13,484 nucleotides of DNA. Origin: Calditrichota bacterium. GTDB taxonomy: Bacteria; Electryoneota; RPQS01. Shown piece after piece: positions 1 through 4,083 of the stretch. A model generated the notes under the pieces. That model saw only the letters and a list, made by a program, of their open reading frames with translations. It had not been told where the DNA came from and did no database searches. Position numbers and translations under genes: made by a program. The first letter of the stretch is position 1. Each line of letters opens with the position of its first letter. The stretch covers positions 1-13,484 of the forward strand of contig JAGVEU010000371.1 in the NCBI GenBank assembly GCA_020057985.1, read 5' to 3'.

Positions 1-1655
1 GACGCTGAGATCTCAAGCCGTGAACGGTTCTGCCATGCAGTCTCCAAAAACGCTTGACCCGTAAACTCTTGCGATAGTTCCGGTAGCAACTCTGGATTAC
101 TGCGAGCAGCTTCATCATCAAGCCAGAAAAGCGAATAAAATGTTGGCGCTCGGTAGGATCTCCCCCATGCAACTGAGGCGCCGATTCTATGATGAGGTGA
201 ATAGAAACTCCTAAGTCCAATCTTCGGGATGAGATTGATACCGCTGTCCCCGAATTTTTCCGTTCTTACTCCGGTTTCTGTCGCTATCTCAAACTGCCGA
301 CTCCGGCTCGCATATATGGCCTGGTTCCACTGCGACCACGCACTCCAACGATTTCGTTCGGCTTGGCCTCCAATCAGTTGATTTGAGATTATGCTTTCGT
401 TGCACCCCTGCAATCCGACTGAAACACGTGCGGAGCGGACACGAGTTTGTGCGCGAAATTCGCCCTCCCACTGCTTGCTTGCCTCAGTTGTTCGCTCGAC
501 AATTCCGTTAGGATTATGCTCACTGATTTCCTTGCCGTCACTCTGATGAGAAAGACGACCTTCGAGATCGGACCGGCCAACAGACTGGTGAACCCGCAGA
601 TTGAATGCACTCCGTTGAGTGCTCTGTCTGATTTGCAGTAATGATGGAGGTGCAAGATGGTTAGGTATTCCACGCCGCCCTCGATCAAGCTCGGCAGTAC
701 CGGATACCTCTCCACTCCTGCCGAGTCGCGAGGTTAGCTTCAGAAAGAGCTGATCTCGCCTCATGTCATCATTCTGTCGTCTGAATCTCTTGCCGAGATC
801 CGTGGTGAATTTTCCGTTGCCATCCTCCTCGGTGATTGTATACCAGTAGTCGCCAGGTCCGTCTGTAAGTGTGTAGCCCACAATGCTTGAGAGTTGACCG
901 ATTTCCCCAGTGCGCGAAAAACTGAAACGGTGTGAAGTGGAATGAACATCTTCGCTAATGACGATTTCACCGCTGCGATCTGCTGCTCGTGTCGTGAGTC
1001 GAATTATCCCGCCAATGGCCTCGCCGCCCGATTCAACCCGACTGCCACGATCAATTGCAATGGATTCAATCCAGTCCAACGGAATCGAAGCGAGATCAGC
1101 TTCCCCTGTGCCCAAATCCTGCAGCCGTCGGCCATCCACGAGCACGAGAACCTGATTGGCATTCGAGCCGCCAATGCGAACGGTGGCCGGTGATCCAAGA
1201 CTTCCGTCACTCCGCACATCCAACCCGGCATATTGACTCAGGAATTGCGGAAGCGTCTGAACCGCACTGACATCAATTTCATCACGGCTAAAGATCTTCT
1301 CATGCGCTGGACCTTCGCTCAGGATGACAATCTCAGGCAAAGACATCATCCGTGAATGCAAGATGAGTCGCAATTCCCGATGATCTACTGATCCGAGAGA
1401 AACCGCTGTGTCTTGTGGTGCTAAGCCCTCGGCAAAGACCTCGACGCGGTACATTCCTGACGGCAACTCACTGAAGGTCGCTTCGCCTTGAGCGCCAGTC
1501 TCCCGCGTAATGCGAAGAGGCCAAAGTAAAACACTTGCACCTTCAACACGATTGCCTCGCTCTGACTGAACGCAAATGGCGAGCGTCGAACCGGTTTGTG
1601 CGCGCGCTCCTGTTGAAACAAGAAACATAAACAGCAGGACCGCAATCACAGCCAT
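1..1655 (-). CDS. TonB-dependent outer-membrane receptor, probable cobalamin receptor (3' end outside window)
   Basis: The frame is open from an ATG at 1655 to the window edge, giving 551 visible codons without a stop; the C-terminal part of the barrel is missing. Residues 1-19 form a signal peptide ending in ARA before QTG. Residues about 22-100 look like a carboxypeptidase-regulatory-like beta-sandwich. A possible TonB box (SLPEIVIL) lies near 105-112. The plug domain is at about 125-222, with VRIGGSNANQVLVLVDGRRL and a GGEAIGGIIRL end. The barrel follows and includes the family motif SYRAPTF (500-506) and SNPELLPE (519-526). Such receptors import scarce ligands with energy from TonB-ExbBD. 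The start lies inside the upstream gene (10-base overlap), which suggests translational coupling. B12 as ligand is inferred from the cobalamin riboswitch heading the operon; a BtuB-like role fits, but the ligand cannot be read from the sequence. Confidence 0.9.
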   Translation of the reverse strand, partial: MAVIAVLLFMFLVSTGARAQTGSTLAICVQSERGNRVEGASVLLWPLRITRETGAQGEATFSELPSGMYRVEVFAEGLAPQDTAVSLGSVDHRELRLILHSRMMSLPEIVILSEGPAHEKIFSRDEIDVSAVQTLPQFLSQYAGLDVRSDGSLGSPATVRIGGSNANQVLVLVDGRRLQDLGTGEADLASIPLDWIESIAIDRGSRVESGGEAIGGIIRLTTRAADRSGEIVISEDVHSTSHRFSFSRTGEIGQLSSIVGYTLTDGPGDYWYTITEEDGNGKFTTDLGKRFRRQNDDMRRDQLFLKLTSRLGRSGEVSGTAELDRGRRGIPNHLAPPSLLQIRQSTQRSAFNLRVHQSVGRSDLEGRLSHQSDGKEISEHNPNGIVERTTEASKQWEGEFRAQTRVRSARVSVGLQGCNESIISNQLIGGQAERNRWSAWSQWNQAIYASRSRQFEIATETGVRTEKFGDSGINLIPKIGLRSFYSPHHRIGASVAWGRSYRAPTFYSLFWLDDEAARSNPELLPELSQEFTGQAFLETAWQNRSRLEISA

Positions 1656-3505
1656 AGTTTCCACATAAAGGCAAGATACTCTTCCTTGCCAATCATGCGA
1701 TAGCCGGGAAGAATATCATAACTCTCTTTGAAGAAGTTCTCCGTTCCCCACACAAGCGTTACCCCGCGAATCGAAGCGGAGATGCGGAAACCAACTAAAT
1801 ACGAAGGCCCAAGTGTGGCAGTGCCCTTGTCTGAGAAGGTGAGTCGTTGACCGATGTATTCATAGCTAATATGGCTGCGAACTGTGAGCGGTGACTTGAA
1901 GAAAGCCTTCTCGAAATAGAGCCTCGTGTAGCCTCGAGTGTCCACTTTCTCATTGAGTGATGCCGGATTGAGCTGAGCAAACCACCACGAGTCAAGCCGA
2001 AGTTCATAAATTAGGGGAAGTACCGACATACCGGACAAGCCAAGCTGCGACTCCCTTGACACATCCCGCACATAGACAAGCGATGTCAATGTGTCTGCCG
2101 CCACAAACTGATTCTGAAAATCTCCCAGCGGATCAATCGAATGAATCGCCACATCGAAAAAAGCGCGGTTCCTCTGCCACCGAACACCAAAATCTGATTT
2201 CAGAAACCTGTCAACACCTCGCGAAGTTGCAGTGGGTGAAGCTGTGCCATAGTATCTGTTGATATCCGCGAACGTAGAATCCACAAGCAAGGGTCGAGCA
2301 GAAAGCGGGTAGCTGCCATTCAGCCAAAGAATGGGCGGAGTGCTCTCGAGATAATGCAAACCTCCATGCAACGAGACTGATTTGTAATCCAGAGTTCTAA
2401 TAGCGATTCCCGCATCGTACAAAGGCCTAATGCGATCCGCAGTTCTCGAAGCCTGATGCATAGAGCCTCGAAAAGCGATGTCACCAAGCGGGAATCTTAC
2501 AGAATCCTCCGCGCTCACCTCCGCAAATATCTCATGTCCCAGTTTAGCTTGTGGGTAACTTAAATTCGCGAGCATGGTCAATTGGCGAAACCTGAAACTG
2601 TGATTGGGCCGCTCCGCACGGCATTCAATATTCCAGCCCGTTACGGTTTCTTTCATGCGAAAGGCATCTCCCCAGTCCTCACGATCACGTCGTGCAAAGA
2701 TCTGAATCGAGGGACTAAGTGATGACCTTGCAGAGTCCCTTTCGCTTATCTCTGCAATGCCCTCCTCTCGCTCAAGATAGGGATCCACCGTTGTGAGCGG
2801 AAACTCCGAATCAATATGCGAACCGGCATAGGTCAGATTCGCCCTCCAGCGATTGCTTACATTAAAACCGAATCGCCCTCTAACCCGGTTGACCCTTGAC
2901 GCGGTACGCTCGCGCAACCCGTTGTACCAAGCAAGACGACCGGTGACTTCAATCGAGGATCTGCGATAGACTCGCTGCCCGTGAGAAAAGTCAACGGTTC
3001 CGTAGCCATAGTAACCCTCACGAATCTGAAACTCGGTCACCGGTGTGTCCACTGGAATCGCGCGTGTCTTCATGAGGACTCGCCCAGCCGCAACTCCCGA
3101 CAGGAAATAATAGTTCATTGAGTCTAACTCCGAGACCGGTTGCAGGTTCGACTCGTAAATGCCGTCGGAGATTCGATTCTGTGGAATGCCATCCCGTTCA
3201 ACTCGAATTTGCCACGGGTGCAAATTCCACGGATGAAAGACAATCGGTGCGCCAAGCGTCCCATAGTCCATTGGATACATGCCGGGGAATTTGCGCAGAA
3301 AATCACTGGCGTCCTCATAGGAAGTATTGAGAAAGTCCTCCTGCCGAAAAACCACTCCTTGTGCATGGACAACATCCGTGATGACAAGCAGCAATGCAAC
3401 ACCCAACATCGTTGCAACAATCCATCCTGCTTCCCTCCGTCTACGGGGGGACAAAGGGGGGTTAAGGCGAGAGAATTGGAGTGGAATCATGGCAAAAGCT
3501 TTCAT
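1646..3505 (-). CDS. Outer-membrane beta-barrel protein, TonB-receptor-like with reduced plug, in B12 operon
   Basis: The product has 619 residues. The hydrophobic signal-peptide core is at about 33-46, ending VVHA before Q49. Residues about 64-145 resemble a receptor plug (DASDFLRKFPGM, then a variant of 'LVLLDGIP' reading IRVERDGIPQN at 100-109), but I see no TonB box and no regulatory-like domain before it. The rest is rich in alternating aromatic and polar stretches, as in a barrel. The C-terminus (ENFFKESYDILPGYRMIG, ending in WKLWL) resembles the last strands of TonB-dependent receptors and has the terminal aromatic pattern of outer-membrane proteins. The start at 3505 overlaps the upstream stop as ATGA. 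However, 32 residues before the signal core is unusually long, and residues about 13-24 (LNPPLSPRRR) are encoded by a repeat element; initiation at M33 (3409) is possible. I do not know a named family. A role in cobalamin uptake is inferred from the operon. Confidence 0.8.
   Translation of the reverse strand: MKAFAMIPLQFSRLNPPLSPRRRREAGWIVATMLGVALLLVITDVVHAQGVVFRQEDFLNTSYEDASDFLRKFPGMYPMDYGTLGAPIVFHPWNLHPWQIRVERDGIPQNRISDGIYESNLQPVSELDSMNYYFLSGVAAGRVLMKTRAIPVDTPVTEFQIREGYYGYGTVDFSHGQRVYRRSSIEVTGRLAWYNGLRERTASRVNRVRGRFGFNVSNRWRANLTYAGSHIDSEFPLTTVDPYLEREEGIAEISERDSARSSLSPSIQIFARRDREDWGDAFRMKETVTGWNIECRAERPNHSFRFRQLTMLANLSYPQAKLGHEIFAEVSAEDSVRFPLGDIAFRGSMHQASRTADRIRPLYDAGIAIRTLDYKSVSLHGGLHYLESTPPILWLNGSYPLSARPLLVDSTFADINRYYGTASPTATSRGVDRFLKSDFGVRWQRNRAFFDVAIHSIDPLGDFQNQFVAADTLTSLVYVRDVSRESQLGLSGMSVLPLIYELRLDSWWFAQLNPASLNEKVDTRGYTRLYFEKAFFKSPLTVRSHISYEYIGQRLTFSDKGTATLGPSYLVGFRISASIRGVTLVWGTENFFKESYDILPGYRMIGKEEYLAFMWKLWL
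3432..3466. repeat. Hairpin repeat element, copy A (inside the 5' end of the outer-membrane protein gene)
   Basis: On the plus strand a stem-loop at 3432-3451 (arms 3432-3439 and 3444-3451, loop TCTA, one T-G wobble) is followed by ACAAAGGGGGGTTAAG. It matches the other two copies in layout, in the GGGGGGACAAA core and in the 4-base loop, with different stem bases. In the gene it encodes the proline- and arginine-rich stretch just before the signal-peptide core. Confidence 0.7.
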
Positions 3506-4056
3506 GCTGAAACGAGCGCTTTTCGAAGTCTCGGGAGCAGCGGCGCGACTACAAATAGGAAGACCAGCGTGTTTGAAACGAGGTGAATTGCCGCAAACGG
3601 AACTGCGGCAACCATTGTGACCACATACTGCGAAAAAGAAAACCCGGCCATCACAGGGAAAGCCAGGTTTGTTAGAATGTCAAACAGAACTGTTGTCAGA
3701 AAACCAAATCCCACGACTGTCGCAACATACCGAAAACCAACCGTGCGGTTGCACAAGCGCGAAACCAGCGCCCCCATCAATCCTGCAAGACTCATTCCAA
3801 TGACTTGTGCAACGAGCAGCAATCCCATCGAACTCCCCAGAGGATTGAATCCGGCGAAAAGCGCCTCGGTTAATCCTCCGGTAATTAGCCCTGCCGCAGG
3901 GCCGAGCAGAAAGCCCGACGCAAAACAAACTGCTGTCACCAGTTCGACATTGGGCACTCCGGAAAGCGCCAAACCCACCACCAAGCCAACCGATACGAAC
4001 GAGGCAATGCGCGTCAGATAAAGCGGGTTGCGCCCTTGCCGAGTCTCAACTTCCAT
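3502..4056 (-). CDS. ECF transporter S component, probable cobalamin or precursor uptake (CbrT-like)
   Basis: The 184-residue product is very hydrophobic, with about five or six membrane segments. It has the size and texture of the substrate-binding S subunit of energy-coupling-factor transporters, including a small-residue-rich stretch near the N-terminus (ASGFLLGPAAGLITGGLTEA) and an N-terminal charged tail before the first segment. S components bind a vitamin in the inner membrane and work with a shared EcfA/EcfA'/EcfT energizing module, which is not encoded in this window. The ATG at 4056 follows an SD-like GGAGAG. This is the first gene after the cobalamin riboswitch, and its stop overlaps the next start as ATGA. 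Cobalamin as substrate is inferred from that context. S components diverge so far in sequence that the exact family cannot be fixed by eye. Confidence 0.8.
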   Translation of the reverse strand: MEVETRQGRNPLYLTRIASFVSVGLVVGLALSGVPNVELVTAVCFASGFLLGPAAGLITGGLTEALFAGFNPLGSSMGLLLVAQVIGMSLAGLMGALVSRLCNRTVGFRYVATVVGFGFLTTVLFDILTNLAFPVMAGFSFSQYVVTMVAAVPFAAIHLVSNTLVFLFVVAPLLPRLRKALVSA

Positions 4057-4062
4057 ACTATT

Positions 4063-4083
4063 CTCTCCGCGCTAAGCGAAGAG
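4063..4083 (-). promoter_or_regulatory. Hairpin sequestering the SD of the ECF S-component gene (riboswitch expression platform)
   Basis: In the RNA, CTCTT (4083-4079) can pair with GGAGAG (4067-4063), and CGC (4078-4076) with GCG (4072-4070), around a UUA loop with a 2-base bulge. The GGAGAG is the best SD for the ATG at 4056 (6 bases between). No T-run follows, so this looks like an on/off switch for translation rather than a terminator. The pairing was drawn by eye, without energy calculation. Confidence 0.5.

Follow-up and report, generated by a model that had tools for sequence, protein, structure and literature searches.

A probable BtuB paralogue without a recognisable TonB box and its constant genomic partner, a CbrT-like ECF S component

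The window analysed here is the whole of a 13,484-base contig from a Calditrichota bacterium (JAGVEU010000371.1; G000:C343 in our labelling), whose source genome is 56.5% complete, and our subject is a minus-strand gene, B, that encodes a barrel protein of the outer membrane. B stands between S, the gene of an energy-coupling factor (ECF) transporter S component, and T, the gene of a TonB-dependent receptor (TBDR); these letters denote genes and products alike, G denotes genomes (G000 being that of the window), L loci, and f1 to f8 families within the window's phylum. We conclude with high confidence that B is a paralogue of the vitamin B12 receptor BtuB that lacks the TonB box. Its fold and homology, the loss of the box, the constraint on its plug and its linkage or fusion to S were established computationally, and operon and fold together suggest a cobamide as its ligand. 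Whether B also acts as the outer-membrane partner of S in a cobamide route is, in our judgement, an evenly balanced question.

Fold and N-terminus of B

An AlphaFold2 (AF2) model of B and its alignment with BtuB over 512 residues, rather than a strand-by-strand count, indicate the 22-strand barrel typical of TonB-dependent transporters (TBDTs), with an N-terminal plug inside it. BtuB was both the best aligned structure and the best sequence match. The sequence-only reading had described a plug-reduced barrel with a signal sequence, a plug-like segment, a receptor-type C-terminus and neither a TonB box nor an N-terminal regulatory-like domain. All of these features were borne out, no CarboxypepD_reg domain being found ahead of the plug, except the reduction: the plug is kept as a domain and constrained as in T, and B lacks instead the TonB-box segment and the RGP motif. 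The profile search that it had proposed gave a divided answer, since the window's B matched no Pfam family (Plug included) and no NCBIfam family, but the relatives at L039, L047 and L063 exceeded the Pfam Plug cut-off; L047 also scored 77 bits against TIGR01779 (cut-off 599.7). Of the ordinary TonB-box-bearing receptor that would have counted against its reading, B shows the complete fold, but the box was not found.

The TonB box was sought before the plug with a loose pattern, as a stricter version missed T, and the plug landmark was taken from a MAFFT alignment that is rough in f3. It matched 11 of 18 T, where shuffles predict 2.4, and 5 of 35 B, where they predict 3.8, the window's B not being among the five; the seven pattern-negative T have similar segments by eye. 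Three of the five B matches lie in signal sequences, and the other two, in the f5 members L063 and L066, lie in the stretch before the plug. These counts omit, among B, L037 (a second copy), L044 (a piece) and the rows of G013, G026, G027 and G030, and, among T, the f4 open reading frames (ORFs) of L050 and L054; over the first 110 residues of these two ORFs, the same pattern is matched by L054 and not by L050. In f1, f2, f8 and G039, a genome of another phylum, mature B starts about 22-25 residues ahead of the plug's PG landmark. Extrapolated from the alignment ranges, this start corresponds to approximately residue 25 of BtuB, past the TonB box, whose position in BtuB we assumed for this placement. 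The RG of the plug RGP motif, which we take to represent the conserved plug arginines of TBDTs, was found in none of 26 B. Two such arginines are conserved among TBDTs according to a review (PMC11658791). The B proteins of f4, f5 and f7 have extensions between signal peptide and plug, which are Asp/Ser/Pro-rich in f5 and in some f7 members.

B may instead be an ordinary TonB-dependent transporter that contacts TonB through an unrecognised site, as its retained plug and fold, a constraint equal to that on T, the presence of TonB in all 20 genomes surveyed and the five pattern matches, two of them before the plug, would allow. However, the number of matches is close to the shuffle expectation, with most of them in signal sequences, and the mature chain of f1, f2, f8 and G039 begins so near the plug that no mobile N-terminal segment is left. 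In addition, the review places a TonB box in all TBDTs and describes FhuA deprived of its box as having lost its energy-dependent functions (PMC11658791). We regard this explanation as distinctly unlikely.

Constraint on B and age of the B/T separation

Among seven f1 genomes, mean pairwise identity was 0.505 in the plug and 0.374 in the barrel of B, and 0.515 and 0.377, respectively, in those of T; the column scores used for constraint omit the fragments P0002 and P0028. Such agreement with T in both domains would not be expected of a decaying or spare B, and a pseudo-receptor of that kind was rejected on these identities together with the presence of B in 38 of 39 phylum genomes. The alignment of the model with BtuB and the conservation of the plug likewise led us to reject a plug-less porin as the identity of the window's B. 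A related possibility is a TonB-independent diffusion channel, in effect a cobamide porin, in which the plug has rearranged to leave a pore. The loss of both the TonB box and the RGP motif would suit such a channel, as would some S-linked ORFs outside the phylum with a barely recognisable plug (G231, whose ORF is not shown to be a barrel). Against it, the 512-residue alignment with plugged BtuB must, to judge from the size of the barrel, take in plug residues, and conservation in B is higher in the plug than in the barrel; we consider such a channel very unlikely.

In a tree built by a quick method, with Shimodaira-Hasegawa-like approximate likelihood ratio test (SH-aLRT) support only and without five long branches (X_L088, X_L084, X_L078, X_L089 and B_L045), 22 B, including that of G039, fell on one side of a branch (99.7) and 15 T on one side of another (100). 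Within T, whose internal order was read from the tree of all rows, G039 and G095 fall among the sequences of the phylum and apart from B, by which a recent origin of B as a copy of the adjacent T was rejected. Judged from these trees, the separation of B and T is old.

Conservation of the S-B pair in the phylum

With a family profile at E < 1e-50, B was detected in 38 of 39 phylum genomes, at least 20 of the 38 having contributed rows to the profile and so matching by construction; it was missing in G016 and present twice in G007. Because B is conserved across a phylum, the observation made in the window is not a matter of chance. S was present as a single copy in each of 38 of the 41 genomes searched. 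The two genes adjoin in 31 of 38 genomes (f1 11/11, f2 2/2, f3 9/9, f4 2/2, f7 6/6, f8 1/1, f5 0/7), and a cobalamin riboswitch precedes the pair in 20 of 38 (11 in f1, 2 in f4, 6 in f7, 1 in f8), with exceptions in layout in G009 (f1), where it is cut by the contig end, and G021 (f8), where the riboswitch lies 0.75 kb ahead. In f2 and f3 the riboswitch occurs elsewhere, near a TBDR plug match in at least 9 of 11 genomes (G011, G012, G013, G018, G023, G026, G032, G035 and G037). A homologue of the window's rplS was found in 19 of 37 other loci and immediately precedes S in some f1, f2, f3, f4 and f7 loci. T directly follows B in f1, f7, f8 and G039 where the contig continues, and a TBDR-like ORF does so in f4 L054; in f2 and f3 the site holds S and B together but no T. 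The rplS, adjacency and riboswitch surveys thus indicate a conserved site at which B is constantly accompanied by S rather than by T. The second copy of B in G007 (L037, G007:C19:10021-11811) has no S, and the gene immediately ahead of it encodes a metallophosphatase that carries a secretion-tail domain.

The sequence-only reading had placed both barrels in a riboswitch-controlled operon for cobalamin uptake, perhaps as partners. The riboswitch, the 619-codon frame of B and the ATGA and 10-base overlaps were all found as it described them (the second overlap is 19 bases if T starts at GTG), and its expectation that homologues would mostly lie near B12 genes agrees with the counts above. A shared cobamide role is likely, but the constant partner turned out to be S. 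Its full receptor, T, has the expected CarboxypepD_reg, Plug and barrel matches in Pfam, but is incomplete in the window, where the contig ends within the barrel, 554 codons after the GTG.

Identity of S and T and cobamide physiology of the hosts

S reached no Pfam family cut-off, PF07155 (E 6e-4) being under it. A profile of 26 S proteins against the PDB gave 6fnp_A first (E 4.8e-7) and 6zg3_C second (E 0.034); by this profile match S is related in sequence to CbrT. The former entry is the structure of ECF-CbrT, and CbrT handles both cobalamin and cobinamide (PMC5997447). The best NCBIfam match of T is the B12-receptor model TIGR01779 (E 1.2e-24, 86.9 bits, under the cut-off of 599.7). In relatives, a propeller-family protein is encoded behind T. 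A profile from ten T-linked propellers recovered five more, of which L044, L052, L045 and L054 lie behind T in G004, G025, G021 and G019, and L067 behind a separate riboswitch-headed receptor of G011. The L035 propeller (2563-3834) is related to YncE-type proteins, including BtuG1 (8blw_B, E 4.5e-7), its best PDB match being the surface-layer protein 1l0q (E 1e-10), and several T-linked propellers have a weak Por_Secre_tail match. These propellers are possibly a surface B12 lid that is exported by a route other than that of Bacteroides BtuG.

CobS was found in none of 20 genomes (10 of 14 controls), which makes cobinamide or a similar precursor unlikely as the substrate. The survey of CobS, TonB and FecCD in these 20 genomes indicates that the hosts probably import complete cobamides and that S is likely to be the inner-membrane importer. 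PF02361, which covers EcfT and also CbiQ, was found in 34 of 41 genomes.

S-barrel neighbours beyond the phylum, and S-barrel fusions

Searching 291 genomes with the S profile gave 57 matches at E <= 1e-8, 37 in the phylum and 20 outside it. Among the 20, S stands at a contig end in G062, G092 and G106, no barrel lies behind it in G041, G189 and G232, and in the remaining 14 a same-strand ORF of at least 400 residues directly follows S or is fused to it. Eleven of these ORFs are TBDR-like by some profile, clearly so in G039 (the single genome of its phylum), G095, G174, G082, G227, G209, G244 and G172, and weakly in G103, G194 and G230. The G247 barrel is weakly supported, in its C-terminal part only (hhalign E 6e-4, probability 28%), and the downstream ORFs of G091 and G231 had no profile support as barrels. 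A riboswitch above the cut-off was found in 2 of 19 non-phylum loci (G095 and G174). In G174, riboswitch and S are accompanied by a complete, canonical receptor whose TonB box is evident, an arrangement that may be ancestral. The order at L081 (G095) is riboswitch, S, T and propeller, and the S gene contains an internal TGA; S may be decaying there, where no B adjoins it.

S and the barrel are also found as one chain. In G021 (L045, 767 residues; one genome), S (E 4.5e-31) and B (E 1e-22) share one open frame, and in G247 (L094, 841 residues) S continues into a barrel-like chain, as it does in four further proteins of 813-860 residues that are 61-80% identical. Because these four share the arrangement, the G247 fusion is not an assembly error. 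Both joints contain a signal-peptide-like segment; an AlphaFold2 model of the fusion from 5 sequences had a predicted local distance difference test (pLDDT) score of 30.5 and was uninformative.

These fusions bear on the possibility that B is a non-transporting accessory of T, that is, a docking, lid or lateral partner that aids capture by T and the BtuG-like propeller. The position of T, or of a TBDR-like ORF in f4 L054, directly behind B and of the propeller behind T would agree with this, and there is a precedent in Moraxella CopB, a TBDT that aids iron use via other receptors. However, the fusions link the barrel to S, not to T, f2 and f3 keep S and B together without T at the site, and the help given by CopB required its TonB box (PMC8497027). 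We consider such an accessory role unlikely, though still worth weighing.

Proposed role of B

We propose that B, with its plug in a BtuB-like barrel, is an anciently separated member of the BtuB family from which the TonB-box segment has been lost. T and the propeller, under riboswitch control, would constitute the ordinary TonB-powered outer-membrane route, and S and B would be co-produced by translational coupling or as a single chain. B would then serve, with no pull from TonB, as the outer-membrane partner of S in that same route, either binding cobamide at the outer membrane and helping to deliver it to S, or being a matched docking or binding partner; it may let cobamide through, store or present it, or dock other components. 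A shared cobamide role of B and S is likely because S is nearest to CbrT and the model of B aligns best with BtuB. The chances of the proposal as a whole seem to us about equal either way, and those of TonB-independent action of B with S somewhat below that. A bolder form, to which we give rather little credence, is that S and B are an inner- and outer-membrane pair, produced stoichiometrically, that carries cobamide across the envelope without TonB and that some lineages make as one polyprotein and cleave at its internal signal peptide; this would be the first family of TBDT fold to have given up TonB for coupling to an ECF transporter, and one present in several phyla.

Several points weigh against this proposal. 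If TonB cannot open its plug, a barrel of this kind is, on present knowledge, shut. The B proteins of f3, f4, f5 and f7 carry N-terminal extensions that could hold a TonB site, and 2 of 5 f5 members match the pattern there. Foldseek E-values place siderophore receptors (PirA, PfeA) above BtuB (rank 9), and the tree of all rows gives B a support of 61, with L047 unresolved and five long-branch rows. In the seven f5 genomes, B and S are not neighbours. FecCD matches were found in 9 of the 20 genomes, 7 above the Pfam cut-off, all partial and of at most 35 bits (13 of 14 controls); they may represent a divergent BtuC, and BtuD and BtuF were not searched for. Seven of 41 genomes, G006 (98% complete), G010 (95%) and G000 among them, gave no EcfT/CbiQ match, and in G006 and G010 S may act alone or with an unrecognised EcfT; solitary action has been proposed for BtuM (PMC6072759). 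Finally, no riboswitch was found ahead of S-B in f2 and f3 (0/11 under the stricter filters), nor did a rescan of 10 of the 11 loci (all but G013) reveal one. This absence, together with the scores of S under the Pfam family cut-offs, would suit S and B serving a different compound, with a cobalamin-operon location in some families only. Against that stand the 20 of 38 pairs behind a riboswitch, with G039 and G174 outside the phylum too, and the nearness of S to CbrT and of B to BtuB, so that we hold a different compound to be highly improbable.

Organization of the window

Upstream of S, the minus strand carries ribosomal and related genes (named by eye) that end in trmD and rplS; the order is then rplS, riboswitch, S, B, T and contig end (Table 1). 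The region of the hairpin ahead of S does not fold better overall than shuffles (z 0.61). From the 587-residue length of the relative P0001, the real start of B may be Met33, downstream of the annotated ATG. A repetitive extragenic palindromic (REP)-like palindrome at 3433-3451 (-), within the 5' end of B, has 20 copies in the genome (at most 2 mismatches; reversed control 0) and codes for part of the extra residues of B that precede the signal peptide.

Table 1. Positions of the features of the S-B-T locus within the window
Feature	Position	Strand	Basis and remarks
Cobalamin riboswitch aptamer RF00174	4109..4254	-	87.3 bits vs cut-off 31.5, E 7e-21; starts at rplS stop
8-bp hairpin, possible expression platform	4063..4083	-	Putative; 3' arm contains likely Shine-Dalgarno of S
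S: CbrT-like ECF transporter S component	3502..4056	-	Pfam PF07155 (sub-cut-off); PDB profile match 6fnp_A; stop overlaps B start (ATGA)
B: BtuB-fold outer-membrane protein without TonB box, 619 aa	1646..3505	-	ORF, AF2 model, BtuB alignment
B signal sequence, residues 1-48, cleavage near the VHA-QG junction	3362..3505	-	Crude script prediction
B plug-like domain (approx. residues 49-155), lacking TonB box and RGP motif	3041..3361	-	
B beta-barrel, residues 156-619, C-terminal family motif PGYxMxxKEE	1649..3040	-	
T: BtuB-type TonB-dependent receptor, CarboxypepD_reg-like domain, TonB-box-like LPEIVI, plug	3..1664	-	Truncated by contig end; start GTG 1664 (19-base overlap with B) or ATG 1655 (10-base overlap)

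Comparison with known systems

Among the matches listed in the open-licence (CC0, CC BY, CC BY-SA) PMC literature, we found no description of an S-linked barrel without a TonB box. A gene for an S-type importer (BtuM) beside a BtuB gene is already known (PMC6072759); the lineage-wide TonB-box-less barrel and the S-barrel fusions did not appear among the matches listed. A strongly constrained, lineage-wide BtuB-type protein without a recognisable TonB box, adjacent or fused to an inner-membrane vitamin carrier, raises the question of how an outer-membrane receptor acts without TonB, and also that of how ECF vitamin importers obtain their substrate in Gram-negative bacteria that lack a clear BtuCDF. 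The S-barrel gene pair and the fusions offer a concrete and testable system for both.

B resembles BtuB of E. coli and BtuB1-3 of B. thetaiotaomicron in its plug and barrel fold and in its occurrence in a cobalamin riboswitch operon. Unlike BtuB, it has no recognisable TonB box, no RGP motif and, in the window, no family-model match, and it is coupled to an ECF S component and shares its operon with a BtuB-type receptor that does bear a TonB box. The closest solved structure to S by profile is ECF-CbrT of Lactobacillus delbrueckii (PDB 6FNP), whose host is Gram-positive and has no outer membrane, whereas S is here followed by or fused to a barrel. The T-propeller pairs of relatives recall BtuB-BtuG of Bacteroides, the L035 propeller being related to BtuG1. 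BtuG is a surface lipoprotein (PMC10404256), whereas several propellers here have a weak secretion-tail match and B adds a further barrel. CopB of Moraxella catarrhalis, a TBDT-fold protein that aids uptake via other receptors, is comparable to B if B is an accessory, but CopB needs its TonB box (PMC8497027). A parallel in gene order is the BtuM-BtuB neighbourhood, in which bacteria lacking BtuCDF encode a B12 importer of S-component type beside a B12 receptor of the outer membrane; the partner of BtuM there is a TonB-dependent BtuB (PMC6072759), whereas here S is CbrT-like and the barrel has no TonB box. A second BtuB-like barrel that lacks the TonB box, beside an inner-membrane B12 importer, suggests a previously undescribed partner role in B12 uptake.

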